Assembly (NCBI RefSeq): GCF_004145405.1 | Contig: NZ_SELQ01000008.1 | Span: 1-64,000 of the forward strand | Direction of reading: 5' to 3' | Source of the DNA: Salipiger sp. IMCC34102 | GTDB lineage: Bacteria; Pseudomonadota; Alphaproteobacteria; Rhodobacterales; Rhodobacteraceae | DNA length: 64,000 nt | In this document: piece by piece, positions 23,981 through 38,857 of the stretch | Numbering within the stretch: the stretch's first letter is position 1 | Layout of the letters: each line of letters starts with the position of its first letter | Translations under genes and position numbers: made by a program | The notes under the pieces: generated by a model | The model's input: only the letters and a program-made list of their open reading frames with translations | What the model was told of the DNA's origin: nothing | The model's database searches: none

Positions 23981-26278
23981 TCAGAGGGCGATCTTGATCG
24001 GTTTGCCGTTCGCGGCGCGTGAACAGCAGCTCATCATGCGGCGGCCTTCCTGCCGCTCGGCCCGTGTCAGCACCATGTCGCGATGGTCGATTTCGCCTTC
24101 GACGACCGCGACCTCGCAGGATCCGCAAAGCCCTTCCCGGCAGTCGCAGGGCACGTCGATCCCCGCCGCCTGGATCGCATCGAGCAGCGTTCCGTCGCGC
24201 GGCACCGTGACGGTCAGACCGGAATCGACCAGCTGCGCCTCGAACGGCACTTCGTTCTCGGGGTCGAGCCCCGCCGCGGTGCTGGCGAAATGTTCGGACC
24301 GGAAGGTGCCGGGCGGCAGATCGGCGGTCCGGTCTTCCAGCGCGGCGAGCAGCCCCCCCGGCCCGCAGGCGTAGATCTGCCCCCCCTCCGGCAGATCGGC
24401 GACCAGCCGGGAGAGGTCCATCATCGACCCTTCGTCCTCGGCGTAGAGTGTCAGCGCCGATCCGTGATCGCGGTTGAGCCGGTCGAGAAAGGCCATCGAC
24501 CGACGCGCCCGCCCGCCGTAGTGGAGCGCGTAGGATTTACCTAGCGCCCGAAGCCGGTCCGCCATGGCCAGGATCGGCGTGATCCCGATGCCGCCGGCGA
24601 TCAGAAGGTAGTGCGGCGCGCTTTCGTCCAGGCGGAACAGGTTGGAGGGTCCGCGCAGGCCGATTTCGGCCCCGGCCCGCAGGGTGTCGTGGATGTGGGC
24701 CGACCCTCCCTTCCCCGCGGCCTCCCGCAGGATCGCGACACGGTAGGTGCCGTCGTCGGCCGGACCGCAGAGCGAATACTTGCGGTCGAAATCCCCGACG
24801 CACAGCTCGACATGCGACCCCGGTGTCCAGTCCGGCAAGGCGCGTCCGTCCGCCGCTTCCAGGGTAAGGCCAAGCACGGCCTCTGCCTCCCGCCGCACGT
24901 CGGTGACGCGGACGGCGCGCGCGACGTCGCGCCGGTTCGGCGCACCCACGGCGAAGTCGCGGCGCGGGCGCGGTGCGGCGTCGGCCTGGCGCTCGGGATT
25001 GCGTGCGGGATCCCAGTGCACCCAAAGCGCCTCCGGCCCCCGGAACGACGTGTTGGGCATGTAGCTGAACGTCTGCTCGGCCAGGCGCAGGTGCGGCAGG
25101 CGGCGCGAAACCTCTTCGAGGAAGATCCGCATTTCCATCCGGCCGATGTTCTTGCCCATGCACTGGTGCGCGCCGTAGCCGAAGGTCAGGTGGTCCACGG
25201 CATTGTCGCGGTAGATGTCGAAGACCTCCGCGTTCTCGAAGTGTCGTGGGTCCCGGTTGGCGGAGGCCTGGACGATCAGCAGCTTGGCCCCTTCCGGCAG
25301 GTCCACCCCATTCAGCGCGGTAGGCGCCGTCGTTTGCCTGCGCCAGGCCACGATGGAGCCCGCGTAGCGAAGGCACTCCTCGACCGCGTTGGGAATAAGC
25401 GCGGGGTTGGCACAGATGTCGTCCCAGGCGTCGCGGTGGGTCAGCAGCGTCTTGAACATGTTGGCCGAGGCCAGGGATGTCGTCTCGTGGGCAGCCACGA
25501 TGATCGCCATCATCATCGAGTGGACGTAGCTGTCGGTCACGATGTCCGGTCGTTCCGCGTTCATCCTGATGGTGTGGTGCATCCAGCCGGTGCCGTCCGG
25601 CTCTGACCGCATCCGCTCGATCACCTTGCCGGCATAGGCCCAGAACCGTCCCACATCGTGCGCGACCTGAGCCTGCTTCTCGTCGGAGGGGCGCCCCCAG
25701 GTGTTCACCGAATGCGCCAGCGAGAAGGTCCGCAAGGTCTCGACCTCGTCCTCGGGCACACCGAGGAAGTGAAGTGCTACCAGCAACGGCACCTCGTAGA
25801 GCATCTCTTCCACCAGATCGGCGCGGCCTTCGTCCACAATCGCGTCCAGCCGCTCCTGCGTCAGTCGCCGGATCATGTCCCGGTGCTGTTCGAGGTTTGC
25901 GGGAAGGAAATGGTCCAGAAGAAGGCGCCGCCGCTCCATGTGGGCGGGCTCGTCCTCGTTCACCAGCGTGCGGTCCATCGCGTAGTCGTAGCTGAGCAGG
26001 ATCTTCATGGCCTCCTCGGTCGGGGGCGAGATCTTTTCCAGCACGTTGCGCGGCGAGAACAGGATCGGGTCGCGGAACACGGCCTTGATGTCATCGTAGC
26101 GCGATACGACCCAATAGCCGAGCTTGGGGGCGTAGAACACCGGCGCCTGCGCCCGCGCCCAGGCCAGCGCCTCTGCCGGATCGGCTTGATAAGGGGCGTC
26201 GAACGGGTCGAAGTCACGCGCCATCGCCGCGGGATCGCCCATCGGGCAGCCGCCTTGGCCAGTGTCATGTTTTGCCAT
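23981..26278 (-). CDS. Self-sufficient cytochrome P450 fused to phthalate-dioxygenase-type reductase (CYP116B-like)
   Basis: 765 residues in one chain. The P450 domain (about 1-440) shows the I-helix AAHETTSLAS, the E-x-x-R helix EECLRYAG and the heme loop FGYGAHQCMGKNIGRMEM with C373 as the thiolate ligand. The reductase follows: FMN site RKYSLCGP, NAD site LLIAGGIGITPILAMADRLR, and a C-terminal plant-type ferredoxin with CDCREGLCGSC and a later Cys. This is the CYP116B arrangement, which receives electrons from NAD(P)H without partners. The start was set at the ATG with GGGGAGG upstream rather than at 26335, which lacks a ribosome site. A palindrome lies 65 bases before the start. Likely role: hydroxylation or O-dealkylation of an aromatic substrate feeding the pathway nearby. 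Confidence 0.94.
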   Translation of the reverse strand: MAKHDTGQGGCPMGDPAAMARDFDPFDAPYQADPAEALAWARAQAPVFYAPKLGYWVVSRYDDIKAVFRDPILFSPRNVLEKISPPTEEAMKILLSYDYAMDRTLVNEDEPAHMERRRLLLDHFLPANLEQHRDMIRRLTQERLDAIVDEGRADLVEEMLYEVPLLVALHFLGVPEDEVETLRTFSLAHSVNTWGRPSDEKQAQVAHDVGRFWAYAGKVIERMRSEPDGTGWMHHTIRMNAERPDIVTDSYVHSMMMAIIVAAHETTSLASANMFKTLLTHRDAWDDICANPALIPNAVEECLRYAGSIVAWRRQTTAPTALNGVDLPEGAKLLIVQASANRDPRHFENAEVFDIYRDNAVDHLTFGYGAHQCMGKNIGRMEMRIFLEEVSRRLPHLRLAEQTFSYMPNTSFRGPEALWVHWDPARNPERQADAAPRPRRDFAVGAPNRRDVARAVRVTDVRREAEAVLGLTLEAADGRALPDWTPGSHVELCVGDFDRKYSLCGPADDGTYRVAILREAAGKGGSAHIHDTLRAGAEIGLRGPSNLFRLDESAPHYLLIAGGIGITPILAMADRLRALGKSYALHYGGRARRSMAFLDRLNRDHGSALTLYAEDEGSMMDLSRLVADLPEGGQIYACGPGGLLAALEDRTADLPPGTFRSEHFASTAAGLDPENEVPFEAQLVDSGLTVTVPRDGTLLDAIQAAGIDVPCDCREGLCGSCEVAVVEGEIDHRDMVLTRAERQEGRRMMSCCSRAANGKPIKIAL

Positions 26279-26342
26279 TCCGCACGATCCTCCCCATCGC
26301 TCTTGCCGGTTCTCTAGCAGATCGAGCACGTTCATTCAATCC

Positions 26343-26357
26343 GATACGCGTCGTATG
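26343..26357. promoter_or_regulatory. Palindromic operator candidate 1 (P450 fusion)
   Basis: GATACG-CGT-CGTATG, 11 of 12 positions of the palindrome consensus GATACGNNNCGTATC. It sits 65 bases upstream of the P450 fusion start, in the region divergent from the first FAH gene. Confidence 0.65.
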
Positions 26358-26438
26358 CATTAATTACAGCGGAGGTCCGGGGTCCTGATTGCAGTGAAAT
26401 AATCGGATCTAGCAGAAACACCTGCCTCGGCACCCCTC

Positions 26439-26481
26439 TTGACCAATGTTGCCGACTGTATAATACGATACGTAACGAATA
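26439..26481 (+). promoter_or_regulatory. Promoter and palindromic operator candidate 2 (first FAH gene)
   Basis: TTGACC, a 16-base spacer and TAATAC form a plausible sigma-70 promoter. GATACG-TAA-CGAATA at 26467-26481 is a weaker copy of the palindrome directly downstream of and touching the -10 region, 17 bases before the ATG. A repressor here would block initiation. Confidence 0.5.
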
Positions 26482-26497
26482 TAAATGGAGCGAGTCT

Positions 26498-27497
26498 ATG
26501 AAGTTTGGACGGATCGCGAGAGAGACGCCGGACGGCAAGAGGGCACGACTCGTCATGGTCGAGCCCGAAAAGAACCGCGTGGTCGATCTGGCGCGGGCCG
26601 CGGCTCTGCACTTCGAAGCGACACGCGACGCCGGAGGCGGCGCGCCGCTACGCCCGGACCGCGTTTCCGGGCAGCATGACCGAAGCGCTTGGGTTCGGGT
26701 CGTTCCTGATCGATCACGCGAACGACGTCGTGGCGGCCCGTGGCGACGACGCCGCGCTGGAGATCGACGCCGTCGACTGGCTGCCCGCCAGCGATCCGCC
26801 CTTCGTGCGCGACGGGTTGAACTTCCTCGGCCATCTCAAGGGATGGAGCGGCAAGATGGGGCGTCCGCTTCCCGACAGCATCGAACGTATCATCCCTTAC
26901 ACCCATCAGGCCGGATCCATGGCGATCGGACACGGGGCGGAGGTCCCCTGGCCGGGCTATATCCAGAAGATGGACTACGAGCTCGAGCTGGGTTGGGTCA
27001 TCGGGCGGCAGACCTCCAACCTGACGCCGGACAGGGCGCTGGATGCGTTGTTCGGGGTCACGATCTACAACGATTTCAGCGCGCGTGATCTGCAGCACGA
27101 CGAGTTGCCCATCGGAATGGGGTGTACCAAGAGCAAGAATTTCGCCCAAGGCATCGGTCCGTGGATCACCACGAAGGACGAATTCGACGACCTCTATGCG
27201 ATCCCCATGCAGGCGCGCGTCAATGGCCAGGTCACCGCGACGGGCGACAGCGGCGGGGTCCTGTGGACGCTGGACAAGATCCTCGCCTTCGTCTCGCTCG
27301 GCGAGCGGCTGATGCCCGGCGACGTCATCGGGTCGGGGACCATTCAGGGCGGATCGGCCTGGGAGCATGACATCGCGCTCAAGCCCGGCGACACGATCGA
27401 GTTGGAGGCGGGCGGCATCGGAACTCTGCGCAATACCTTCGGGGCGCGGCAGGAGGGCCTGTGGTGGCCCACCCCGCAGCCTGGAACGATCGTCTGA
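26498..27497 (+). pseudogene. Fumarylacetoacetate hydrolase family protein, frameshifted
   Basis: Coding starts at ATG 26498 (MKFGRIARETPDGKRARLV) and runs in one frame to about 26633; homologous sequence then continues in another frame (EAARRYARTAFPGSM onward) to the stop at 27497. Removing one G in the CCGGAGG at 26631-26637 restores a full protein of about 330 residues. The body is a typical FAH domain: QKMDYELELGWVIG, TIYNDFSARDLQ, SKNFAQGIGPWITT and SGTIQGGSAWE. Such enzymes hydrolyse or hydrate 2-oxo acids from ring cleavage. The lesion may be true inactivation or a sequence error. Confidence 0.85.
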
Positions 27498-27615
27498 AAT
27501 TACCCCGCGCTGTCGCAACCGGGCGGAGGTGACGGCGCGCGCTCGCCGACGAAAAGGCGCGATCGAACCGGCGATCCCCACAGGGGTCACCGAACAAACC
27601 AAGGGAGAGAGATCA

Positions 27616-28101
27616 ATGGCCGATATGGCACGCACCGCCCAGGGCGACCCGGTGACGCCCGCTGACGACATCGAGGCGCAATTCACCAGCGCCGACCCCG
27701 AGCTGCATCGCAACAAGCAGGCAGCCTACAAGATCTTCACCATCCTCGACGAGGCCGGGAATTGGGACCGCGTGAACGAATTCAAGACCGAACGCTATAT
27801 CCAGCATGATCCATTCGTGCCCTCGGGCAGCGCGGCAGTCGTCAAGTTCTTCACTGAAACCCATGGCGTGAAGCCGCGTCCGGTCGAGGACAAGTTGCGG
27901 ATGAAGGTCGTGGCGGTCGTGGCCGAAGGCGACATGGTGACCATTGCCTCGGCGCGATACCTCACGAACCCGCATGATCCTTCCGAAACCTATACGACGA
28001 CGTGGTTCGACATGTTCCGTTTCGTCGATGGCCGGGCCGACGAACACTGGGATTGCGCGACGCTCGACATGAAGGAAGCGCCGAACCTGGTCGGGGTCTA
28101 G
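27616..28101 (+). CDS. SnoaL-like / NTF2-fold protein
   Basis: 161 residues with an NTF2-like fold of the SnoaL-like aldol-condensation/ester-cyclase group: HRNKQAAYKIFTILDEA, RYIQHDPFVPSG, and FDMFRFVDGRADEHWDCA. A GGGAGAGA stretch lies before the ATG. It follows the first FAH gene by 118 bases on the same strand and probably shares its promoter and operator. Proteins of this group isomerise or cyclise small polar substrates; which one here is unknown. Confidence 0.82.
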   Translation: MADMARTAQGDPVTPADDIEAQFTSADPELHRNKQAAYKIFTILDEAGNWDRVNEFKTERYIQHDPFVPSGSAAVVKFFTETHGVKPRPVEDKLRMKVVAVVAEGDMVTIASARYLTNPHDPSETYTTTWFDMFRFVDGRADEHWDCATLDMKEAPNLVGV

Positions 28102-28184
28102 CGCACGGCGACGCGCCCCTCGACTGCCCCACGTCCATCAGGGCGCGAGATCCCGGAACCGGGCGTGATGGCAGTCTCGACGAA

Positions 28185-28212
28185 AACGCCTCCTTCGATT
28201 GAAGGAGGCGTT
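28185..28212 (-). terminator. Intrinsic terminator between convergent units
   Basis: AACGCCTCCTTC, loop GATT, GAAGGAGGCGTT: a perfect 12-bp stem. Read on the minus strand the stem is followed by TTTTCG, so it terminates the FAD monooxygenase transcript; it may also stop the plus-strand SnoaL-like transcript ending at 28101. Confidence 0.8.
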
Positions 28213-28234
28213 CATGTTCGCAGGCGTTCTCACG

Positions 28235-28260
28235 GGGCCCGCGCGGCCTGTCGCGGGCCC
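28235..28260 (-). terminator. Second hairpin downstream of the FAD monooxygenase
   Basis: GGGCCCGCG, an 8-base loop and CGCGGGCCC form a perfect 9-bp GC stem 14 bases past the monooxygenase stop codon. No T-run; with the stem at 28185 it forms a tandem hairpin pair between convergent genes. Confidence 0.5.
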
Positions 28261-28273
28261 GCCGCGCCTTGCG

Positions 28274-29389
28274 TCAAAGCGGTTCCGCCATCAGCTTCAG
28301 GATGCTTTGCCGGATACGTCCGAGGTCCTGCTGGCTCTTGGCAGTCTCCAACTCCGACGAGCCGTCGATGATGGCCTTCACGCGGTCGAACCGGCGGGCG
28401 TTGAAACCGTCGAGCGCCGTCGCGATGTCATCGGGGTGGCGCGCCACTTCGTCGGCCAGCACGATCCCGTCCTCGATCCCCATGGCGGCCCCTTGCGACA
28501 GGGACGGGGAATGGACGTGCGCCGCATCCCCGATGATGACGGCGCGCCCCCTGTGCCACGGCACGGGCAGGAGCATCGTGATGACGGGCCGGCACCAGAC
28601 ATCCTCGGGCGAAGTGATGTGCTGCGACAGCTCGGGTACGAAACCGCCGAAACCCTCCAGCAGCTCGCGCATCTGCACATGCAGCGTGTCGTCGTCGCGA
28701 CGGGACGAATCCTCGCTGCTCTGGCCGATGTAGATATAGGCATCCGTGTCGTCGAGCGGGACGATACCGACCACGCTCTTGTTCTCGCCAATATAGATGT
28801 GAGAGCGGTCCAGCCCCTCGATCCGCGGCGTCTTGGCCCGCCAGACGATGGCGTTCGAGAATTCCGGCTCGAGCTCGGGCAGGAGTCGCTTGCGAGTGGG
28901 AGAGGCGACACCCTCGGCCGCCACCAGCAGCGCATACTCCCCCGTGCTGCTGTCCGACAGCGTCACCTGCATCGCGTCGCCGATCTCTTCCCAGTCCGTG
29001 ACGGTCATGCTGCACCGCATCGTGACGCCTGCGTCCACGGCCGCGTCCACGAGGGCCCTGTGCAGGTTCCGCCGTTTGATGTTGAGGTTCGTGGGCAGGT
29101 GCGCACCGCCGATCCGCGGCTGCGGCAGGTCGATGACCAAGGTCCCGTCCTGCGTGTGCACCGCCTGGCTGTCCGCCCAGACCCCGGTATCGAGGCACTT
29201 CTGAACCGCACCGATCTCTTCCAACGCCCGCAGCGCGTTGCCGACGAGGGTCAGCCCGATCCCGCCCGCGTCCGACAGTTCCGGCTTGCGCTCGACCAGG
29301 TCGACTGAAAGCCCCTTGCGGGCCATCGCCGCCGCGGTGGTGAGACCGGCGATTCCGCCGCCGACCACCAGTATCTTCGTATCCGTCAT
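28274..29389 (-). CDS. FAD-dependent aromatic monooxygenase (group A, salicylate/3-hydroxybenzoate hydroxylase-like)
   Basis: 371 residues. The N-terminal FAD motif is ILVVGGGIAGLTTAAAMARK, and the second conserved FAD segment is VIIGDAAHVHSPSLSQGAAM; between them WRAKTPRIEGL and MLLPVPWHRG fit NAD(P)H-dependent flavoprotein hydroxylases. The ATG has an AGGGAGGA upstream. It would hydroxylate an aromatic ring before cleavage by the VOC dioxygenase. It forms its own unit with a perfect palindrome 90 bases upstream and a terminator downstream. Confidence 0.9.
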   Translation of the reverse strand: MTDTKILVVGGGIAGLTTAAAMARKGLSVDLVERKPELSDAGGIGLTLVGNALRALEEIGAVQKCLDTGVWADSQAVHTQDGTLVIDLPQPRIGGAHLPTNLNIKRRNLHRALVDAAVDAGVTMRCSMTVTDWEEIGDAMQVTLSDSSTGEYALLVAAEGVASPTRKRLLPELEPEFSNAIVWRAKTPRIEGLDRSHIYIGENKSVVGIVPLDDTDAYIYIGQSSEDSSRRDDDTLHVQMRELLEGFGGFVPELSQHITSPEDVWCRPVITMLLPVPWHRGRAVIIGDAAHVHSPSLSQGAAMGIEDGIVLADEVARHPDDIATALDGFNARRFDRVKAIIDGSSELETAKSQQDLGRIRQSILKLMAEPL

Positions 29390-29478
29390 CTCGCATTCCT
29401 CCCTGGATTGGTCCGGCCCCCCAGACCGTCCGGTCCGAGGCCTCGGCGCCTCCCGCGTCGCGACTGAATTTAACATAC

Positions 29479-29493
29479 GATACGTGGCGTATC
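29479..29493. promoter_or_regulatory. Palindromic operator candidate 3 (FAD monooxygenase), perfect copy
   Basis: GATACG-TGG-CGTATC, a perfect 6-3-6 inverted repeat extended by one further pair (C...G) on each side. It lies between the alpha/beta hydrolase stop and the monooxygenase start, 90 bases upstream of the latter. This copy defines the consensus. Confidence 0.7.
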
Positions 29494-29519
29494 GATACTA
29501 TCGACGTCAAGCGGCGTCT

Positions 29520-30296
29520 CTACCCGCTGACAAGATCCGCGACCGCGACGGGGTTCTGGATGTGGGCGTTGTGGCCCATCCCCTCCAAGGCCGCGGCATC
29601 GGGGTCGAACCGACGGTGCGCGGCCAGATCGGCGATCGCGTCCTCGGTCCCGCAGGCCAGGGTGAGCGGGCATCGCAAGGCTTCGAACAAGGGTGCGATC
29701 GGGGGGCCTACGGCACCGAAGACACCGGGCACCATGGCGAGAACCGCCGCCTCCGCTCCCCTACGGATGCCGCGGGCGGTTTCGGGGGCATCCTCCCGGA
29801 CGAGGCCGGACAAGCCAGAGATCTTGAGATGACGTGCGCGCGCCTCAGAGGTCGTGGCGAATGCGCGCGGTGGCTTGGCCGCAACCGCCTGGGCCTGGGC
29901 AATCTCCGTCGGGGTCCAGTCGAACTTGACGCCGAAGGCCGCCAATCGCGCAGGCGGCGGCCCGAAAAGCCCGCCCGCCAGGCAGGCGCCGACCACGCCG
30001 CCGAAGGAATGCCCCAGAACGGTGATCCGATCGGGATCTTCGCTGCGTAGCAACATCGCGATGTCGGCGGCGTGCATGCCGAACCCGTAGGGCCCCTGCC
30101 CGGTCGAGCCGCCGTGGCCGCGCAGGTCCGGCGCGATCCACCGGAGGCCCCGGCTTTCCAGAACGCGGGCGACCTTGACCCAGACGGCCGCGGTCGCCCC
30201 AATGCCGTGCAGCAGGACGACGACCCGGCCACCGTGTCCGCCGCTGGCGACCCACAGCGGTCCGTCGCCCCGCGGACGATCCGCGCTCAAGTCCAT
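29520..30296 (-). CDS. Alpha/beta hydrolase (meta-cleavage C-C hydrolase-like)
   Basis: 258 residues with the alpha/beta hydrolase elements in order: oxyanion region VVVLLHGIGATAAVW, nucleophile elbow VLGHSFGGVVG, an acid region near CGTEDAIADL and the catalytic His in EGMGHNAHIQNP. The ATG at 30296 overlaps the end of the upstream dioxygenase gene by 10 bases, suggesting coupling. In this order (dioxygenase, hydrolase, FAH-family enzyme) it most likely hydrolyses the ring-cleavage product; this is inference from context. Confidence 0.87.
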   Translation of the reverse strand: MDLSADRPRGDGPLWVASGGHGGRVVVLLHGIGATAAVWVKVARVLESRGLRWIAPDLRGHGGSTGQGPYGFGMHAADIAMLLRSEDPDRITVLGHSFGGVVGACLAGGLFGPPPARLAAFGVKFDWTPTEIAQAQAVAAKPPRAFATTSEARARHLKISGLSGLVREDAPETARGIRRGAEAAVLAMVPGVFGAVGPPIAPLFEALRCPLTLACGTEDAIADLAAHRRFDPDAAALEGMGHNAHIQNPVAVADLVSG

Positions 30297-31222
30297 TCTT
30301 CGAACCAGGTCTTGGGCGGCGCGGGTCCCCACATGTTCATGTGATACCAGTGCTCGTGCTCGACCGTCGACGGCGTGTAATCGTGACCGACGTAGGCCAT
30401 CGGACCTGCGACCTCGATCCGGTTGCCGAAAGGATCGCGCACGTAGGCGAACAGCGACCGGACTTCGTAGTGGCGACCGGGGCCGTATTCCACCGGGATA
30501 TGTTCGCGCTCGATATGGGTGAGGAAAGCGAAGAAATCGTCCTTGTCCATCGAGAGCGCGACATGGTGAAGCCCCGGCTTGCCGGCCAGGATCGCGAGCT
30601 GGTGGTGGTAGTCGTTGATCCGGGTGAACTGGATCATGTGATTGTCGCCATCGGGTGTGGGCACGTAGTTGGTCACGCGAAAGCCCAAGGCGTCCTGAAC
30701 GAACCGGGAGAGGCCCATGACATCCGGGGTCCGCAGTTGCAGATGGCTGGTGCGGATGTCGAGCGCGCCGGGCGTCAGCCCCCGGGTCGACGGCTTGTCG
30801 CGCGGAGCGGCCTGCATGATCTGCTTGGTCTGGCCTTCCGGCAAGGTCAGGCGCAGGGCGCGTTCGGTGTCGGGGCGGGTGCGGTCCGCGCTGTCGTCAT
30901 AGGCGACGCCCGCGGATTTCATCCGATGCGCCAGCCGATCGAGCCCGTCACCCTCGTGCACGCGAAAGCTCATGTAGTCGAGACCGGTGCCGCCTTCCGC
31001 CAACCCCAGCACGATCTGTCCGGAAACGGGGCTTGCAAGATACGCGATCCCACCGCGCCGGTCCGCGACGGTCAGGCCCAGGAAACGATTGTACCAATCC
31101 GCCCCCTCTACGAGATCGGGCACCTTGATGACGGTGTGGTCGAGCGCGGCGAGGTTGCCGGCCCAATCCTGCTTCGGGGGCAGCATGGGATCCACGGTCG
31201 GGATCATGGTGTCTTGTGACAT
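30287..31222 (-). CDS. Extradiol (VOC family) ring-cleavage dioxygenase
   Basis: 311 residues with two VOC modules, the catechol 2,3-dioxygenase architecture. The Fe(II) ligands are visible in the second module: His in TSHLQLRTPDV, His in GLHHVALSMD and Glu in GNRIEVAGPM. The first module starts at LAALDHTVIKVPDL. GGAGGAGG precedes the ATG. It lies between the second FAH gene and the hydrolase in one operon and would cleave a catechol or hydroquinone-type ring made by the monooxygenase or P450. Confidence 0.9.
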   Translation of the reverse strand: MSQDTMIPTVDPMLPPKQDWAGNLAALDHTVIKVPDLVEGADWYNRFLGLTVADRRGGIAYLASPVSGQIVLGLAEGGTGLDYMSFRVHEGDGLDRLAHRMKSAGVAYDDSADRTRPDTERALRLTLPEGQTKQIMQAAPRDKPSTRGLTPGALDIRTSHLQLRTPDVMGLSRFVQDALGFRVTNYVPTPDGDNHMIQFTRINDYHHQLAILAGKPGLHHVALSMDKDDFFAFLTHIEREHIPVEYGPGRHYEVRSLFAYVRDPFGNRIEVAGPMAYVGHDYTPSTVEHEHWYHMNMWGPAPPKTWFEEWT

Positions 31223-31261
31223 GGGGTCCTCCTCCAGGGCGTGTGTCGGGGTGCGGGCGGT

Positions 31262-32287
31262 TCACTCGAACGGTGGTAGCCCGAAATGCGGGGTGCGGGT
31301 GGTCTGTTCTGCCACCAGCCGGTTGCGCTGGCGGCCCAGCCCGGTGATCTCGACGTCGAGCGTGTCGCCGGCCTTCAGGAACTGGCCATGAACACCGCCG
31401 TTTCCGGGGGGAGATCCGGTCATCACCAGATCGCCCGCAAGGATCGGCAGCCGCTCGGACGCGTAGGCGACATAGTCCTCGGGCGTGAAGATCATGTCGT
31501 TGGCGGGCCAGTCCTGCTTGATCTCGCCGTTGACTTTCAACTGGATCTGGAAGCCATCGAGCGTGTCGAAGAATGGCTTCGGGACGACGAAAGGCCCGAC
31601 CGGCTTGAAGGTCGGCGAATGCTTGGCGATCCAGTCGGCGTTCCACTTGATGTCGCTGCGACTGAACATCTCGCAGGTGTGCATGTCGTTGACGATGCAG
31701 TAGCCCGCGATGAAATCCCCGGCTTCGTCCGGGGTGATGTAGCGCGGGCTTCCGCCGGTCAGGACCAGACCCAGTTCGGCCTCTCAGTCGTGTTGGTCCC
31801 CCACCAGCGGCAGACGGACATCGTCACGAGCGCCAACGAGGCAGCCATGCGTGGCCATCCAGATGAAGGGCATGCCCGTCGCGCGTTTCTGTTCGACGAA
31901 CTCCATGTTGCGGGCGAAGAACGCATCGTCGCTCTCTCCCTCCTGGCGGGCCTTCTGGTACTCGCCTTCGTTGTAGGTATACATTTCTGCCGCGTGCTTG
32001 CGGTAGTTCGACCCCGCCCCGAAGACCTGCGGTCGTTCGGTGGGGGGCAGCAGGTGCAGGTCGTTGATACCGACGCCGCCCGCCGCCTCGCGTTCGTTTA
32101 GATCGACGAGCCTGTCGAAGGCCCGCGGCCAGTCCTCGTAGATGTCGTTGGCCCGCGCGTAGGACGCGGTCAAGTCGAGGACTTCCCCGTTCGGACGCAC
32201 GAGCGCGGGATAGCTCCGCGTACCGTCGCTGACCCGCGCCAGTCCGAAGGTATCCTTGCCAAGGCCGGTGGTCGTGTCGATGTCCAT
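31262..32287 (-). pseudogene. Fumarylacetoacetate hydrolase family protein with in-frame TGA
   Basis: The frame starts at ATG 32287 (MDIDTTTGLGKDTFGLARV, GGAGA upstream) and runs to 31262, but codon 168 (31784-31786 on the minus strand) is TGA. It falls exactly where FAH-family proteins have the Trp of the D-W-E-A-E-L metal-site motif; here it reads HD-stop-EAELGLVLTGG. All other sequence continues in frame: GSNYRKHAAE before, FTPEDYVAYAS and DLVMTGSPPGNGG after. One TGG-to-TGA change explains it. Either the enzyme is lost in this strain or the base is wrong. It is the first gene of the dioxygenase operon. Confidence 0.88.
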
Positions 32288-32479
32288 GATGTCTCCGTTT
32301 TCTGCTGGGCCCGCGACGTCTGACCGTCGCAAGGCGGGATTGAGATGGGATCGCCGCGTCGATCCGACGCGAAGGGCAAGGTCACGGCATGTCCAGATCG
32401 GCCGACCCGCTGCGCCGGTGATCCTGCATGTCCTACGCATGTCTCCGCGTTAAGTTACGTCCTCCCCGTATTGCGAAGC

Positions 32480-32509
32480 AATATAGAACGGCACGTTTCG
32501 TTTTGTCAA
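32480..32509 (-). promoter_or_regulatory. Sigma-70-like promoter with degenerate palindrome (dioxygenase operon)
   Basis: On the minus strand TTGACA (32509-32504), an 18-base spacer and TATATT (32485-32480). This is the best promoter match in the island. The spacer contains a degenerate copy of the palindrome, AAAACG-AAA-CGTGCC, matching 8 of 12 positions, between -35 and -10. It lies about 190 bases upstream of the second FAH gene. Confidence 0.6.
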
Positions 32510-32628
32510 CGGCGCGCTGGAAGTCAGGTTCAGCGATACGAGGCCCCGCGCAATCCACCGCACGAGGGCGCGGTCGTGCCGGACGGAAAACGACGGACGG
32601 GCATGTTGTGCGCCGGTCGCGCGCCGCT

Positions 32629-33480
32629 TCAGGCCAGCGTCCGGAACAGCCGGTCGTCGACCAGCATCTCGATGCCCCCATCGGCGCCTGGCAAGCCAAG
32701 ACGGCGGCGTTGGTCCTGAAAGATCTCGGCATTCCGCGGTTGGAAGCTGTCGGGAATTCCGGCAAGCAGCGTGTCCACGACAGGGGCGGGAACGCCGGTC
32801 TCCTCCACGATCGCGCGTGCGGGGCCTGGGTTTTCGGAGGCCCAGGCGCGGGCTTCGTCCATGGCACCCAGCCAGGCGCGGATGGCCGGTTCCGCGCGGG
32901 CCATCGCGCCGGTGCGCACGGCCAGCCCCTGCCCCGGCATCCCGGGAAAGAGCGTATCGATCCGGGCCAGCGTGTGAAACCCGGCCTGGACCGCGGCGTC
33001 TTCGACGAAGGTCGCGAGCAACGTCGCCTGACCGCGTCCCGCCTTGAACGCCCCGAAGCGTTCGCGCACGCCTCCGACGACGATCATCCGGTAGGCCTCC
33101 GCGGGAATGCCTGCGTCGTGAAGCAAGGCACGAAGGGCAATGGCAAAGCCGTTCTCGGCCGAATCCACCAGCAGATCGGACCCAACGAGGTCCTCCACCC
33201 GGCCCGCATCCGCGCGCGCGACGAGGATGAATCCGGTCGCGGCTTCAATCTGGGCGACGATCCGAATATCCTCTATGCGCCCGCGCCGGTTCCACATCAG
33301 GACGTTGTCCATCGCCGTCACCACGGCGTCCGCCTCGCCTGCGCAGAGTGCTTCGAATTGCGCATCGGATCCCGTCGTGACGGTCGCAAGGACCTCGAGC
33401 CCCCGCGCCTGGTCGAACCCTCTTGCCTTCGAAATCAGCGAAAGCGGCGGCGGGACGAACCAGTTGACCTTCAGCTTCAT
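32629..33480 (-). CDS. NMT1/SsuA-like substrate-binding protein without signal peptide
   Basis: 283 residues of the NMT1/THI5-like periplasmic-binding fold: MKLKVNWFVPPPLSLISKARG, GSDAQFEALCAGEADAVVTA and FILVARADAGRVEDLVGSDL. The ATG at 33480 has a GGAGAGG ten bases upstream and encodes no export signal; the upstream in-frame residues (MKTDRSDRLPERAHA) are not hydrophobic. No ABC permease or ATPase gene is nearby. It may be a cytoplasmic ligand-binding or scavenging protein, or an enzyme of the same fold. The ligand is probably the aromatic substrate or an intermediate. Confidence 0.8.
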   Translation of the reverse strand: MKLKVNWFVPPPLSLISKARGFDQARGLEVLATVTTGSDAQFEALCAGEADAVVTAMDNVLMWNRRGRIEDIRIVAQIEAATGFILVARADAGRVEDLVGSDLLVDSAENGFAIALRALLHDAGIPAEAYRMIVVGGVRERFGAFKAGRGQATLLATFVEDAAVQAGFHTLARIDTLFPGMPGQGLAVRTGAMARAEPAIRAWLGAMDEARAWASENPGPARAIVEETGVPAPVVDTLLAGIPDSFQPRNAEIFQDQRRRLGLPGADGGIEMLVDDRLFRTLA

Positions 33481-33505
33481 CGCGTGTGCCCTCTCCGGTA
33501 GTCGA

Positions 33506-34042
33506 TCAGACCGATCCGTCTTCATCGAGCGCCATCAGCACGAAGGCCATGCGGCACGGTGCGTCGGACCTGTTCGACCAACTCTGGTTCGTCGCACGCT
33601 GAATCAGGACGTCCCCGGCGGTCATCACCGTTTCGTCCTCGTCCAGAAGGGCGTGGATCTCGCCCGAAAGGCAGATCGCGTAATCCAGGGATTCGGTCTT
33701 GTGGAACCAGAAATGACGTGGCGCATTTTCGTCCCGGACCCCGTGGGTGTCCAGAAAATCGGTGAGCCGGTCCTTTCGCGTATAGGTGTCGTCGGGCGGA
33801 AAATCGACGATTCTCAGGATCGACCCCTTCGGAGAGTGAAACCCGAACTTGTGCCCCGCGGGGGCAGGCTCTTGACCCTCTGCGGCGCTTTCGCCGGTGG
33901 CCCAGAGCACCTGCACGAAGGACGGCGCGTAATCCGCCATGAAGTGGTTCGGCGCCGGTCCGTCCGACAGGATCGTCGATCGACCCTGTGCGTCTTCGCC
34001 TGTCACGATTCGCCTTACGCGGCGAGGGCTTACATCTGGCAT
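33506..34042 (-). CDS. Cupin domain protein
   Basis: 178 residues. The C-terminal half is a cupin: HFWFHKTESLDYAICLSGE (motif 1, with the normal first His pair partly replaced) and ETVMTAGDVLIQRATNQSWS (motif 2, where Asn replaces the usual His). The N-terminal half contains IVTGEDAQGRSTILSDG, typical of cupin proteins in aromatic catabolism clusters. Weak metal ligands suggest a non-metal binding or structural role. It precedes the binding protein on the same strand by 26 bases; a palindrome lies 24 bases before its start. Confidence 0.83.
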   Translation of the reverse strand: MPDVSPRRVRRIVTGEDAQGRSTILSDGPAPNHFMADYAPSFVQVLWATGESAAEGQEPAPAGHKFGFHSPKGSILRIVDFPPDDTYTRKDRLTDFLDTHGVRDENAPRHFWFHKTESLDYAICLSGEIHALLDEDETVMTAGDVLIQRATNQSWSNRSDAPCRMAFVLMALDEDGSV

Positions 34043-34065
34043 ATCCGACCCTATTCAAACAATTC

Positions 34066-34080
34066 GATACGGTCAGTATA
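34066..34080. promoter_or_regulatory. Palindromic operator candidate 4 (cupin/binding protein unit)
   Basis: GATACG-GTC-AGTATA, 10 of 12 positions of the palindrome, 24 bases upstream of the cupin start, in the gap after the TetR stop. Immediately beyond it the sequence is AT-rich (TATAAATATCTATC), as expected for a promoter. Confidence 0.55.
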
Positions 34081-34150
34081 TAAATATCTATCGCCAGGGG
34101 AACTGTAAATTTATCGTTTGGCCCGTTCCTTGCGGTGTGACGCGCCGAAT

Positions 34151-34771
34151 TCAGGCCGCCAGGCGTCCGGCCTCGTCCATCTCAAGACCCAGCAACCGGA
34201 AGAAATTGATCGGGAAATTGGCGATGAAATCCGCGTCGACAGGCCGGTGACGCCATGACAGCCGCATGTAGAGCGGCGCATAGAAGAGGTCCATGAACTC
34301 CTCGACGCTCATGTCGCCGGAGGGCCGCCATTTCTGGAAGAGATCGTCCACGACCTCGCGCACGACCGCCCGTCGGCCATAGTGGAACCTCTCCCGGAAC
34401 TCGCGCAGGACCTCCGGGTCGCTTTGCCCTTCGGCCAGGATTTGCGCGACGAGATTTCCAGGCCAGCCGGAGTATTGCTCCGCCAAAAGGCGCCAGTGAT
34501 GCACCAGCGCCTCCGCGGGATGGCAATCGCGTGGCATAGGCGTGCGGACGATATGATTTTCGACGAAGGCGTCGATCACGACCGAAGCCTTCGAGTTCCA
34601 CCATCGGTAGATCGTGGCCTTGCTTACGCCGGCCGACTTGGCGATGGCCTCGATCGTGATGGTCTGGACCGAATTTTCCCGTGCCAACTCCAGCGCCGCG
34701 GCCAGCACGGTCTCCCGCGCGGCCTCGCTTCGTGGTCGGCCACTTCTGCGCTTCTGAACGACGTCACTCAT
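34151..34771 (-). CDS. TetR/AcrR family regulator of the catabolic island
   Basis: 206 residues. The N-terminal TetR helix-turn-helix is clear: ETVLAAALELARENSVQTIT then AIAKSAGVSKATIYRWWNSK at about residues 20-66. The C-terminal ligand domain has the LVAQILAEGQSDPEVLREFR pattern of the TetR subgroup found with P450 and FAH genes. A basic patch (KRRSGRPRSEAARE) precedes the HTH. It sits inside the island and has a palindrome 51 bases upstream of its own start, so it is the best candidate for the factor that binds all seven palindromes and represses them until an aromatic ligand is present. Confidence 0.9.
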   Translation of the reverse strand: MSDVVQKRRSGRPRSEAARETVLAAALELARENSVQTITIEAIAKSAGVSKATIYRWWNSKASVVIDAFVENHIVRTPMPRDCHPAEALVHHWRLLAEQYSGWPGNLVAQILAEGQSDPEVLREFRERFHYGRRAVVREVVDDLFQKWRPSGDMSVEEFMDLFYAPLYMRLSWRHRPVDADFIANFPINFFRLLGLEMDEAGRLAA

Positions 34772-34821
34772 GCGATTCCCCTTACCGTCTTGCGCCCGGC
34801 GGCCCATACGAGGCGACGACC

Positions 34822-34836
34822 GAGACGTTTCGTATC
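34822..34836. promoter_or_regulatory. Palindromic operator candidate 5 (TetR gene)
   Basis: GAGACG-TTT-CGTATC, 11 of 12 positions, between the BKACE stop and the TetR start. It implies autoregulation of the TetR gene. Confidence 0.6.
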
Positions 34837-34848
34837 GCATGACCGCCG

Positions 34849-35784
34849 TCAGAATGATACCGCTTCTCGTCCCTTGAGATCCAGAAGGACCCGTGCCTCC
34901 GTGGGGGTCGCAAGCTCCAATCCCAGCTCGTCCAGGATCCCACGCATCTTTCTCACCTGGTCCGCGTTCGACCGTGCCAGCTCTCCGCGGGATATATAGA
35001 GGCTGTCCTCGAGACCGACCCGAACGTTGGCGCCCATCAGCGCCGCGGTGACCGCCACGCGGAACTGGTTCGGCCCGCCCGCCATCACCGACCAGCGCAG
35101 ATCGTCGCCGAACAACCGATCCGCGGTGCGTCGCATATGAAGGATATCCTCCGGGTCCGCCCCGATCCCGCCGGACAGGCCGAAGATCGTCTGGACGTGA
35201 AGCGGTGGCTTGACCAGGCCTTCCCGCAGGAAATGCGCGAGGGTGTAGAGGTGGCCGATGTCGTAGCATTCGAACTCGAATCGCGTCCCGCCCTTCTGGC
35301 CGATCTCGGTCAGAATCCAGGCGATATCCTCGAAGGTGTTCTTGAAGACCGCGCCCCGTGTGGCCTCCAGGAACCGTTGCTCCCAGTCGTGTTTCCATTC
35401 GCGGTCCCGCTGCGCCATTCCCGACAGGTTCAGGTTCATCGACCCCATGTTCAGAGACGCAAGCTCGGGGCTGAGCATATGGGCGGCGTGGGCGCGCTCG
35501 CTCACGGGAACGCCCGGTCCGCCGCCGCCGGTCGAGATATTGATGACCGCGTCCGTCGCCTTCTTGATCGTCGGAAGAAACGCCCGGAACACCTCCGGAT
35601 CCCCCGAGGGTTTGCCCGTCGCATCATCCCGCGCATGCAGATGCACGATCGCGGCCCCCGCTTGGGCGGCGTCGATGGCCTGTTACGCGATCTGCTCGGA
35701 ATCGACCGGCAGGTATGGCGACATGGAGGGCGTATGGGCGGCGCCGGTCACGGCGCAGGTCAGGATTATCTTCGGTCGGGGCAT
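34849..35784 (-). pseudogene. Beta-keto acid cleavage enzyme (BKACE/DUF849) with early stop codon
   Basis: The gene starts at ATG 35784 and reads MPRPKIILTCAVTGAAHTPS then MSPYLPVDSEQIA, followed by TAA at codon 34 (35685-35683), then QAIDAAQAGAAIVHLHARDD in the same frame to 34849. BKACE proteins usually have Glu or Gln at this site (IAEQA), so GAA-to-TAA is the simplest explanation. The rest is typical: metal residues HLHARDD, NISTGGGG and VGLEDSLYISRGEL. These enzymes condense a beta-keto acid with acetyl-CoA to give acetoacetate and a CoA ester. A downstream ATG exists, but it would remove the first strand of the TIM barrel. Confidence 0.85.
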
Positions 35785-36197
35785 CTGGGGGTCGTCCTTC
35801 TACAAAGAGCGCAGGCCGGACGGTCCCGTAGCACCGCGGCTGCCGGTCGTCCCAAGCCGTGATGTACGGCAACCCGCAACAAGCGGCACCTTTATAACAA
35901 TACGTTTCGTATCGTTATTTCTATGGAAGATTTTGCATTGTCGGCCCATGTGAAAAATAAGATTTGCGGGAATGCCCGGATCGCCTGCTTCGCGACGGAT
36001 CCAGCCGCGTCATGTAACAGCTGCTCCCGCTTCGGCAGGATCGGCCAGACTTCCGGGTTCCCCTCAACGCCGATCCCCTCGCTTTTTACCGGCCCGAGGT
36101 TCGTCCGGGATGCCAGGGCAAAGATGCTGAACAAGCGTCAGACACACGGACCGGTCTGATACTCGGCGGCATTGAAAACGCCAAAGTTGACGCTGTT
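35785..36197. other. Intergenic region with operator, no gene
   Basis: About 410 bases between the BKACE start and the end of the second TetR gene. It holds the palindrome at 35899-35913 and an AT-rich promoter-like stretch (35890-35930). A short minus-strand frame (35892-36134) shows no known domain and is not claimed. Confidence 0.45.
35899..35913. promoter_or_regulatory. Palindromic operator candidate 6 (BKACE gene)
   Basis: AATACG-TTT-CGTATC, 11 of 12 positions, 115 bases upstream of the BKACE start in an AT-rich patch. The central TTT and right half are identical to those of the TetR gene's own site. Confidence 0.65.
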
Positions 36198-36833
36198 TCA
36201 GCGACGCGACGGATGCGCGGTGCTTTCGTGCAGGGCAGGCAATACGATCTGGTCGACGAGGCGCACCAGCAGGTCCTTTTCGATCGCGACCCTCAGGATC
36301 AGGGCGCGATAGGCCGCCATCGAGGGGATGATCTGGGCGGCCAGTGCGATATCGGCCGCTGCGGGGATCTCGCCGCGCTTGGCGGCGCGTTCCATCAGGA
36401 TCGTGTTCGCCGCGATCCACGGCGCGAAGATCGAATAGTCGCCCGTTTCCGCAAGGCCCGGCATCTGGCTGATCATCGACACGACCCCCGCCATGGCGCG
36501 CGAGGTTCGATCCAGTTGCGCGCTGTCGGAAGGCTGGAACAGAGCCAGAAGATCGCCCCGCAAAGAGCCGGTATCGGGCAGCGCCTCCAGGTCGATCTGC
36601 TGTGCCTTCATGTGCGCGACGGCGTCCAGCACGAGATCGGTCTTCGTCGGCCAGCGGCGATACATCGTGCCCTTGCCGGCCAGGGCGCGATCCGCAACTT
36701 TCGCCGTGCTCAGACCGTCGTAACCGACCTCCGCCAGCAGATCGATCGTCGCCTCGAGGATGGCGATGTCGCGGTCGGGATCGCGTTTGCGACCGCGTGG
36801 GCTAAGTGGAGGATCAATTTCAGGCATCAACAT
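36198..36833 (-). CDS. Second TetR/AcrR family regulator
   Basis: 211 residues from the ATG at 36833 (an ATG two codons later is possible; neither has a good ribosome site). The HTH reads IAILEATIDLLAEVGYDGLS then TAKVADRALAGKGTMYRRWP. The C-terminal domain fits the TetR group with MERAAKRGEIPAAADIALAA. It lies at the boundary between the catabolic and carotenoid islands, so it could control either. A palindrome of a different spacing (36842-36859) overlaps its promoter region. Confidence 0.88.
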   Translation of the reverse strand: MLMPEIDPPLSPRGRKRDPDRDIAILEATIDLLAEVGYDGLSTAKVADRALAGKGTMYRRWPTKTDLVLDAVAHMKAQQIDLEALPDTGSLRGDLLALFQPSDSAQLDRTSRAMAGVVSMISQMPGLAETGDYSIFAPWIAANTILMERAAKRGEIPAAADIALAAQIIPSMAAYRALILRVAIEKDLLVRLVDQIVLPALHESTAHPSRR

Positions 36834-36841
36834 CACCAATT

Positions 36842-36859
36842 CGATACTGGAAGGTATCG
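36842..36859. promoter_or_regulatory. Palindrome upstream of the second TetR gene
   Basis: CGATAC, spacer TGGAAG, GTATCG: a perfect 6-bp inverted repeat with a 6-base spacer, nine bases upstream of the second TetR start. It uses the same half-site as the catabolic palindromes (CGATAC-N5-GTATCG) but with one more base between the halves. Confidence 0.55.
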
Positions 36860-37319: not shown

Positions 37320-38857
37320 TGGACGGAACGTTTGACGCCCGTGCGGACAGGAAGGGCGACGGATCCGACAAGCACGTTGTCGTGATCGGCGCAGGTCCGG
37401 GCGGTCTTGCCACCGCCATGCTGCTGCGGGCGCCCGCGTCACGTTGCTGGAGAAAGAGCCGCAGCCCGGCGGAAGGACAGGATCACTGGTCCGCGACGGG
37501 TTTACCTTCGATATCGGGCCGACGTTCTTTCTCTACCCCGAAATCCCGCGCGAGATATTCGCCGCCTGTGGCCGCGACTTCGACGCCGAGGTCGACCTGA
37601 TCCGACTCGATCCGATGTATCGTCTGCAGTTCGACGACGGCCGTCGCATCGACGCCACGGCCGATCCCGAACGTCTGGCCGAGCAGGTCGCGCGGATCAG
37701 TCCCCGCGATGCCGCCCGGGTGCCTGCCTACCTGGAGGCCAACCAACGCAAGTTCGGCACCTTCCGGTCGATCCTTCAGCGGCCGTTTCTGTCCCTTGCA
37801 GATCTCTTGCGCGGCGACATGCTGCGGGCACTGCCGCAGCTGCATCCCTTTCGAACGGTGGACGGCGAATTGCATCGCTGGTTCGACCATCCGGATGTTC
37901 GGGTCGCCTTTTCGTTCCAGTCGAAATACCTGGGCATGTCCCCGTTCAAGTGCCCGTCTCTCTACACGATCATCGCCCATATCGAATACGGCTTCGGCGT
38001 GTATCACCCGCGCGGTGGATGCAATGCCATCACCGCCGCCATGGCGCGCGTGGCAAAGGAGATGGGGGTCGATATCCGGCTCTGCGAACCGGTGCGAGAG
38101 CTGATCCTCGACGGACGACGGCCGGTACGAGGCCGACGCCGTGATGATGAACGCCGATTTTGCCCATGCGATGACGACCCTCGTGCCCGATACCGCCCGC
38201 AAGCGGTGGACCGACCGGCGCATCGCATCGAAAAGCTTCTCCTGCTCGACCTTCATGCTTTACCTCGGGATCGAGGGCACACTGCCCGAGATGAGCCATC
38301 ACACCATCGCCTTCTCACCCGACTACGCCCGCAACGTGGCCGAGATCGATGCCGGCCAGGCGCCCGAGGATCCGACGATCTACATACAGAACGCCAGCGT
38401 CACGGACCCGTCCCTGGCGCCCGAGGGACATTCGGCACTTTACGTGCTGGCACCCGTCGGCAACCTGACGGGCGGGGTCGATTGGTCCGCCGAAGCCCCG
38501 GGCTACCGGGAGAAGATCCTGGATCGTCTGTCGCGGATCGCCGGGCGCGACATCCGTCCGCTGATCCGGACCGAAGTGATGTACACCCCCGACGACTGGC
38601 AGTCCAAGATGGCGGTCTATGAAGGTGCCACCTTCATCCTTGCGCACAACCTGGGCCAGATGCTGACCTTCCGGCCCCGCAACCGGTTCGAAGATCTGGA
38701 TGGCGTCTACCTTACCGGCGGCGGAACGCATCCGGGCTCCGGCCTGCCGACGATCTTCGAAAGTGCGCGGATCGCCAGCCGGCTTTGCGCCGACGACCTG
38801 GGTCTGCCGGGACGACGCAACCTGACAACGGAACTCGCACGGGAGGCCGCGGAATGA
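37319..38857 (+). pseudogene. CrtN/CrtP-like carotenoid desaturase, two frameshifts
   Basis: Phytoene-desaturase-family flavoprotein split over three frames. Segment 1 starts at ATG 37319 and has the FAD motif VVVIGAGPGGLATAMLLR; segment 2 (from about 37435) reads VTLLEKEPQPGGRTGSLVRD and FDIGPTFFLYPEI up to about 38125; segment 3 reads DDGRYEADAVMMNADF and ends GVYLTGGGTHPGSGLPTIFE. Small deletions at about 37432 (in GGGCGCCCGC) and 38120 (in a GACGGACGACGG repeat) explain the shifts; segments together cover about 510 residues. The end is ATGA-coupled to the next desaturase gene. In C30 pathways the two paralogues desaturate diapophytoene or oxidise a terminal methyl group. Loss of this one would block the pathway unless the lesions are errors. 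Confidence 0.85.

Follow-up and report, generated by a model that had tools for sequence, protein, structure and literature searches.

The question raised by this stretch of Salipiger sp. IMCC34102 DNA (the window: positions 1 to 64,000 of contig NZ_SELQ01000008.1) is which regulator reads a palindrome that recurs across a 9.6-kb island of putatively catabolic genes, apparently for ring degradation. Grouped by strand and spacing, the 11 island genes are all covered by seven units: P450; FAH1-SnoaL (FAH, fumarylacetoacetate hydrolase family); a flavin adenine dinucleotide (FAD)-dependent monooxygenase; FAH2-VOC-hydrolase; cupin-NMT1; TetR1, a TetR family protein; and a beta-keto acid cleavage enzyme (BKACE). 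Judging from sequence comparison, the seven palindromes are very probably operators of the island's own TetR1, which would belong to a widespread group of regulators with an operator like that of the Pseudomonas repressor PhlF.

A preliminary description had placed copies of a 15-bp motif at 26343, 26467, 29479 (perfect), 34066, 34822, and 35899, with a degenerate copy at 32486. All of these sites were found; they are intergenic relative to the annotated island genes, and one inferred transcription unit lies downstream of each (n = 7). The sites stood, with a correction to the unit: the fuller element is the 18-bp palindrome ATACGNNACGTNNCGTAT, in which two 13-bp sites overlap at an offset of 5 bp. 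Its best copies start at 26463 and 29475, and the positions 26467 and 29479 mark the right half of each. The operators are listed below with scores from a weight matrix built from 40 18-mers upstream of foreign TetR1 relatives, each with ≤3 mismatches to the consensus and with zero window sequence among them (the foreign matrix).

26339 to 26356, no strand assigned: operator 1, ATCCGATACGCGTCGTAT, between P450 (minus strand) and FAH1 (plus strand); 17.5 bits; the 13-mer is exact.
26463 to 26480, no strand assigned: operator 2, ATACGATACGTAACGAAT, 17 bp upstream of the FAH1 start; 28.4 bits, the best in the window; 1 mismatch to the 18-mer.
29475 to 29492, no strand assigned: operator 3, ATACGATACGTGGCGTAT, a perfect 18-mer 85 bp upstream of the FAD monooxygenase; 26.1 bits.
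32486 to 32503, no strand assigned: operator 4, AAACGAAACGTGCCGTTC as read on the minus strand, FAH2-VOC-hydrolase unit; 17.9 bits, and 22.0 bits with the PhlF-loci matrix described below.
34062 to 34079, no strand assigned: operator 5, ATTCGATACGGTCAGTAT, 19 bp upstream of the cupin gene; 20.2 bits.
34818 to 34840, no strand assigned: operator 6, two overlapping 18-mers 46 to 51 bp upstream of TetR1; 15.0 and 17.1 bits.
35895 to 35917, no strand assigned: operator 7, two overlapping 18-mers 110 to 115 bp upstream of BKACE; 24.5 and 23.2 bits.

The concentration of the palindrome in the island, noted earlier by eye, was borne out by counting. All seven window places of the 13-mer ATACGNNNCGTAT with ≤1 mismatch lie inside the island (26344, 26463, 26468, 29480, 34067, 34823, and 35900; 26463 and 26468 are an overlapping pair, and 32486, with 3 mismatches to the 13-mer, is not counted here). 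A pattern search of the 3.58-Mb genome under the same terms gave 30 places, compared to 12 for a reversed-pattern control, and with 7 of the 30 in the island the motif is not equally frequent genome-wide at the 13-bp level. The density outside predicts 0.06 places in the 9.6-kb island (Poisson P of ~6e-13), and exact copies, of which the genome holds 5 and the island 3, are likewise clustered (P of ~3e-8). For the 18-mer, 29475 is the sole exact copy in the genome and 26463 the sole one-mismatch copy; 9 of the 42 genome matches with ≤3 mismatches fall in the island.

Relatives of TetR1 were collected from plasmids by tblastn (7 of 59 matched records used) and by searching the genome contigs of 84,980 species with a query alignment made from TetR1 plus six homologues; from the latter search the best 80 of 495 were kept (77 loci), a sample that leans to close relatives. 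The resulting comparison set holds 84 loci with TetR1 relatives at 36 to 63% identity and 83 upstream regions, one having been dropped as too short; contigs shared by some loci make the locus counts less than fully independent. The 13-mer with ≤1 mismatch stood in front of the TetR relative in 47 of 83 regions (21 exact, 26 with one mismatch), compared to 0.7 expected from shuffles, and these relatives span Proteobacteria, Actinomycetota, and Cyanobacteriota. A motif-free search with 1024 × 9 spaced 5-bp palindromes in 70 nonredundant upstream regions returned ATACG-N3-CGTAT as the commonest (15/70), with ATACG-N8-CGTAT tied for second (7/70).

Applied to the window, the foreign matrix gave 8 matches of ≥17 bits, a threshold set after the window result had been seen. 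All 8 are at the seven sites (the BKACE site gives two), and the best match elsewhere scored 10.5 bits, so that the matrix ranks all seven, including the "degenerate" 32486 copy, above the rest of the window. In shuffled windows the maximum was 16.4 bits in 10, and matches of ≥17 bits numbered 2 in 60 windows with a prefilter and 1 in 40 without. Outside the window we sampled 20 stretches of the genome around pattern matches (98,163 bp), which take in 22 of the 23 outside-window matches (C44:117721 was left out); they held zero foreign-matrix matches of ≥17 bits. Twenty of the 22 overlap an open reading frame (ORF) of ≥100 amino acids, a point that is weak in GC-rich DNA and was not used as evidence. 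One of the stretches, on contig C4 (L003:4001-4024), holds a 24-bp palindrome, ATACGAATCATATATGTTTCGTAT, outside any ORF of 100 amino acids and ~70 bp upstream of an ORF that by eye resembles methionine aminopeptidase; it is motif-like, yet its foreign-matrix score is just 10.4 bits.

The upstream sites of 47 of 83 relatives, together with window-free matrices that pick the seven sites, also strengthen the earlier proposal that the TetR protein at 34151-34771 is the likely single regulator. TetR1 scores 41.2 bits against TetR_N (cutoff of 24) and 51.9 bits against TetR_C_11 (cutoff of 32), which places it in the TetR family. In the tree it groups with Novosphingobium and Croceicoccus proteins (support of 100/98).

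Sites in the relatives lie in front of the same kinds of genes. Leaving aside TetR and the FAD monooxygenase, 41 of the 84 loci contain two or more island families. In these island-like loci, 66 of 106 sites are ≤400 bp upstream of an island-family gene, compared to 12% of random positions, and the genes concerned are FAH1 (24), TetR (23), NMT1 (9), cupin (6), and others (4); the underlying tblastn neighbor comparison is uninformative for P450. Every one of the 41 has at least one matrix site away from TetR (105 sites in 826 kb), while the other 43 loci have 28 such sites in 764 kb. The whole genomes of 14 relatives together hold 55 exact 13-mers, compared to 25 for the reversed control, and 13 of the 14 have one. 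All 16 cyanobacterial loci with enough upstream DNA have a copy with ≤1 mismatch upstream of the TetR relative (10 of them exact), and tblastn found no other island family there, P450 aside. In L076, L077, L090, L093, L100, L103, L104, L109, and L113, an exact ATACGNNNCGTAT stands 50 to 54 bp upstream of the matched TetR start.

Thirteen distant TetR loci from the taxonomic family of the host (L022 to L034; 27 to 35% identity) had been meant as a negative control, but 10 of the 13 carry a site of ≥17 bits; the operator is therefore older and wider than the island, and the sampled 98 kb of the host genome and the shuffles serve as the unlinked controls. Several of their sites are TTACG/CGTAA variants, and the accompanying proteins have a GKPTIYRHW or GKPTIYRNW helix; it is possible that these are matched changes in operator and protein. 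The island itself was probably acquired from outside, with loss in relatives as the alternative, because TetR1 matches are few and distant in its own family (13 of 294 other genomes at an E value of ≤1e-15, with 27 to 35% identity) and none was found at that E value in the one other genome seen of its own genus.

We then compared the TetR1 system with that of PhlF from Pseudomonas producing 2,4-diacetylphloroglucinol (DAPG). Both are TetR family systems with an 18-bp double palindrome, and both recognition helices, VSKATIYRWW in TetR1 and ASKPTIYRWW in PhlF (SKxTIYRWW), fit the pattern [SGA]KxT[IV]YRWW. PhlF dimers are reported to bind phO, from which DAPG and monoacetylphloroglucinol release them (PMC8003664). 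With a PhlF query, matches at 83 to 97% identity were obtained in 10 of 298 genomes of a Pseudomonas genus, plus 2 more at 37 to 38%. Each of the 10 close loci has a pair of matrix sites scoring ≥22 bits; the letters seen in locus L127 are presumably those of phO. The 2 distant loci (37 to 38%) had no matrix site of ≥12 bits. A matrix built from the PhlF loci (13 sites) ranked the seven window sites among its eight best matches, although it is not fully independent of the foreign matrix because the latter picked its training sites.

TetR1 is not taken as a PhlF orthologue: it lies outside the PhlF clade in the tree and has 26% protein identity to PhlF (E value of 1e-20). By its operator and its helix, TetR1 falls into a PhlF-type operator group, a grouping of our own. 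The helix pattern is not strictly required, since sites are present as well in 7 of the 10 loci whose proteins have GKPTIYRHW-like or other helices. Function would differ, too, as PhlF represses antibiotic synthesis genes while TetR1 would repress catabolic genes at seven promoters. Local TetR repressors of catabolic operons in general have the regulator gene in the cluster, an operator of its own, and several units, as in the island, which differs from them by its PhlF-kind operator. From its sequence, the island is thus well supported as a local TetR regulon of the ordinary kind, with an operator resembling that of PhlF. PheR was considered as a relative and rejected, since PMC13273656 compares it with IclR family regulators and gives a different motif. 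A literature search by operator letters and gene combination found no report of this regulon among the papers searched.

From these patterns we infer binding, two-dimer occupancy, repression, and an inducer, as follows. The two overlapping 13-bp halves of ATACGNNACGTNNCGTAT, offset by 5 bp, would each be a dimer site. In the absence of inducer, TetR1 would occupy the seven promoters, including that of its own gene. The FAH2 operon offers a picture of such a block: as had been noted, the 32486 site lies inside a sigma-70 promoter-like sequence, and it fits exactly into the 18-bp spacer between the −35-like and −10-like elements TTGACA/TATATT (32509-32480, 11/12 matches), so TetR1 would fill the spacer and block polymerase. 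An inducer, probably a resorcinol- or phloroglucinol-type aromatic or a polyketo-acid breakdown product, would release TetR1 and open all units together.

Several observations weigh against regulation of the island by TetR1 through these sites. Longer forms of the motif are barely or not at all commoner than chance when mismatches are allowed: with ≤3 mismatches, the 15-mer occurs 32 times in the window compared to a shuffle mean of 24.4 (7 of 100 shuffles were as high), and the 18-mer occurs 42 times in the genome compared to 41 for the control. Autoregulation is not universal, because 36 of 83 relatives lack an upstream copy with ≤1 mismatch and 20 of 41 island-like loci lack a matrix site of ≥17 bits near TetR (21 have one). 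Even the nearest relatives (L042 to L044) carry copies elsewhere in the locus, not upstream of TetR, and none lies at the TetR of a Variovorax locus (L037; 45% identity). One relative genome (G298) has 0 exact 13-mers, compared to 4 for the reversed control. Promoter-like sites are not enriched in the island (3, compared to a shuffle value of 1.7), and just one, that of the FAH2 unit, coincides with an operator and shares the strand of its unit. Of the other two, one touches the operator at 29475, but it and the FAD monooxygenase gene are on different strands. Finally, three enzyme genes are broken, FAH1 by a frame change near 26640, FAH2 by an in-frame TGA, and BKACE by an in-frame TAA.

The strongest rival is that the sites are bound by TetR2 (36198-36839, TetR_C_11), alone or with TetR1. 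A TetR_C_11 search of the genome found two proteins only, TetR1 and TetR2, both in the window, and TetR2 has the same C-terminal Pfam family as TetR1, lies 1.4 kb away, and is about equally close to PhlF (29% identity). Its upstream palindrome, GATACTGGAAGGTATC (36842-36857), has the GATAC half in common with the seven sites; it is nevertheless a different palindrome, and the TetR2 promoter has no matrix match. In the tree TetR2 attaches to L029, L030, and L034, all from site-carrying loci, but its branch is very long and the attachment is flagged as unsafe. Its helix, GKGTMYRRW, departs from the [SGA]KxT[IV]YRWW of 100 of 111 compared proteins, a weak point because matrix sites also occur in the loci of 7 of the 10 other exceptions. 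TetR1 is a better match than TetR2 for every one of the 84 foreign loci, a preference that is partly circular because the loci were fetched with TetR1. On balance we regard a role of TetR2 at these sites as unlikely.

A regulator of another family, encoded elsewhere and controlling such clusters, is less likely still. The 20 island-like loci without a site close to the TetR gene would suit it, but the palindrome also stands upstream of the TetR relative in all 16 cyanobacterial loci, where the other island families were not found by tblastn, and in the PhlF loci. That the palindromes are functionless products of chance or repeats, as the near-chance counts of the 15-mer and the lack of 18-mer enrichment might suggest, is already contradicted by the 13-mer clustering and by matrices from foreign DNA that pick the seven sites, and we give it next to no weight.

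With TetR1 as the preferred regulator, the genes that it would control, and its own gene, are as follows.

23981 to 26278, minus strand: cytochrome P450 fused to a reductase/2Fe-2S part (Pfam, NCBIfam); the start at 26278 was preferred over 26335 by eye.
26498 to 27497, plus strand: FAH1, fumarylacetoacetate hydrolase family (Pfam); two ORFs in different frames, with the change near 26640 placed by eye.
27616 to 28101, plus strand: SnoaL-like protein behind FAH1 (Pfam).
28274 to 29389, minus strand: FAD-dependent monooxygenase family protein (Pfam, NCBIfam; under NCBIfam cutoffs among the matches listed).
29520 to 30332, minus strand: alpha/beta hydrolase, last gene of the FAH2 unit (Pfam).
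30287 to 31222, minus strand: VOC dioxygenase, HpaD/catechol 2,3-dioxygenase-like (family profiles; under NCBIfam cutoffs).
31262 to 32287, minus strand: FAH2 (family profiles), with the in-frame TGA.
32629 to 33525, minus strand: NMT1/SsuA-like substrate-binding protein (family profiles), overlapping the cupin gene.
33506 to 34042, minus strand: cupin-like protein (Pfam Cupin_2, 26.6 bits, slightly under the cutoff of 27.2).
34151 to 34771, minus strand: TetR1, proposed repressor, 206 amino acids (Pfam TetR_N and TetR_C_11; footprint in relatives; tree).
34849 to 35784, minus strand: BKACE, 3,5-dioxohexanoate-type beta-keto acid cleavage enzyme (family profiles), with the in-frame TAA.

The clearest enzyme assignment is that of BKACE. 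With the internal TAA read as X, it scores 473.9 bits against NF053538 (3,5-dioxohexanoate:acetyl-CoA acetone transferase), above the curated cutoff of 430, while the fragment after the stop alone scores 390.9 bits, under the cutoff. The other island enzymes are under the specific NCBIfam cutoffs among the matches listed. A BKACE family enzyme with the same assigned substrate, the triacetate acetoacetate-lyase CsTAL, is reported to act in anaerobic phloroglucinol degradation (PMC10470551). That system is anaerobic, whereas the island has oxygenases, which argues for an aerobic route; neither a phloroglucinol reductase nor a cyclohydrolase is named by the family matches seen for island proteins. 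Because the island combines BKACE with two FAH proteins, a flavin monooxygenase, and an extradiol-type dioxygenase, what is known of these families suggests that a ring of the resorcinol or phloroglucinol type would be broken down aerobically, and the 3,5-dioxohexanoate enzyme hints at which ligands are likeliest for TetR1.

Given the three broken enzyme genes, this pathway may be dead here. TetR1 and the operators look intact beside them, and the regulon may be outliving its pathway. Local decay seems a likelier cause of the breakage than poor genome quality, because the rpoB and gyrA reading frames are open, although these are few genes and on other contigs.

What began as a motif seen by eye is now a testable regulon: a regulator is proposed for it, its operator is spelled out exactly, and at one promoter the block can be pictured. 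A broader idea is tentative, and we think it rather less likely to be right than wrong: TetR1 may represent a large repressor subfamily (Proteobacteria, Actinomycetota, and Cyanobacteriota; undescribed in the literature searched) with the one operator code ATACGNNACGTNNCGTAT, whose catabolic branch would control aerobic breakdown of phloroglucinol- or resorcinol-type polyketide aromatics via FAD monooxygenase, extradiol dioxygenase, FAH hydrolases, and 3,5-dioxohexanoate-cleaving BKACE, with PhlF, the switch of DAPG antibiotic synthesis, as a relative of such catabolic sensors in which the operator and a similar ligand were retained. PhlF is a repressor used in synthetic circuits, and the relatives of TetR1, an apparently uncharacterized catabolic regulator group linked to it, may supply new sensors.

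Beyond the island, a phytoene-desaturase-like gene at 37407-38857 is seemingly split over frames as well; the ORF that was scanned covers only the first half of the family profile.

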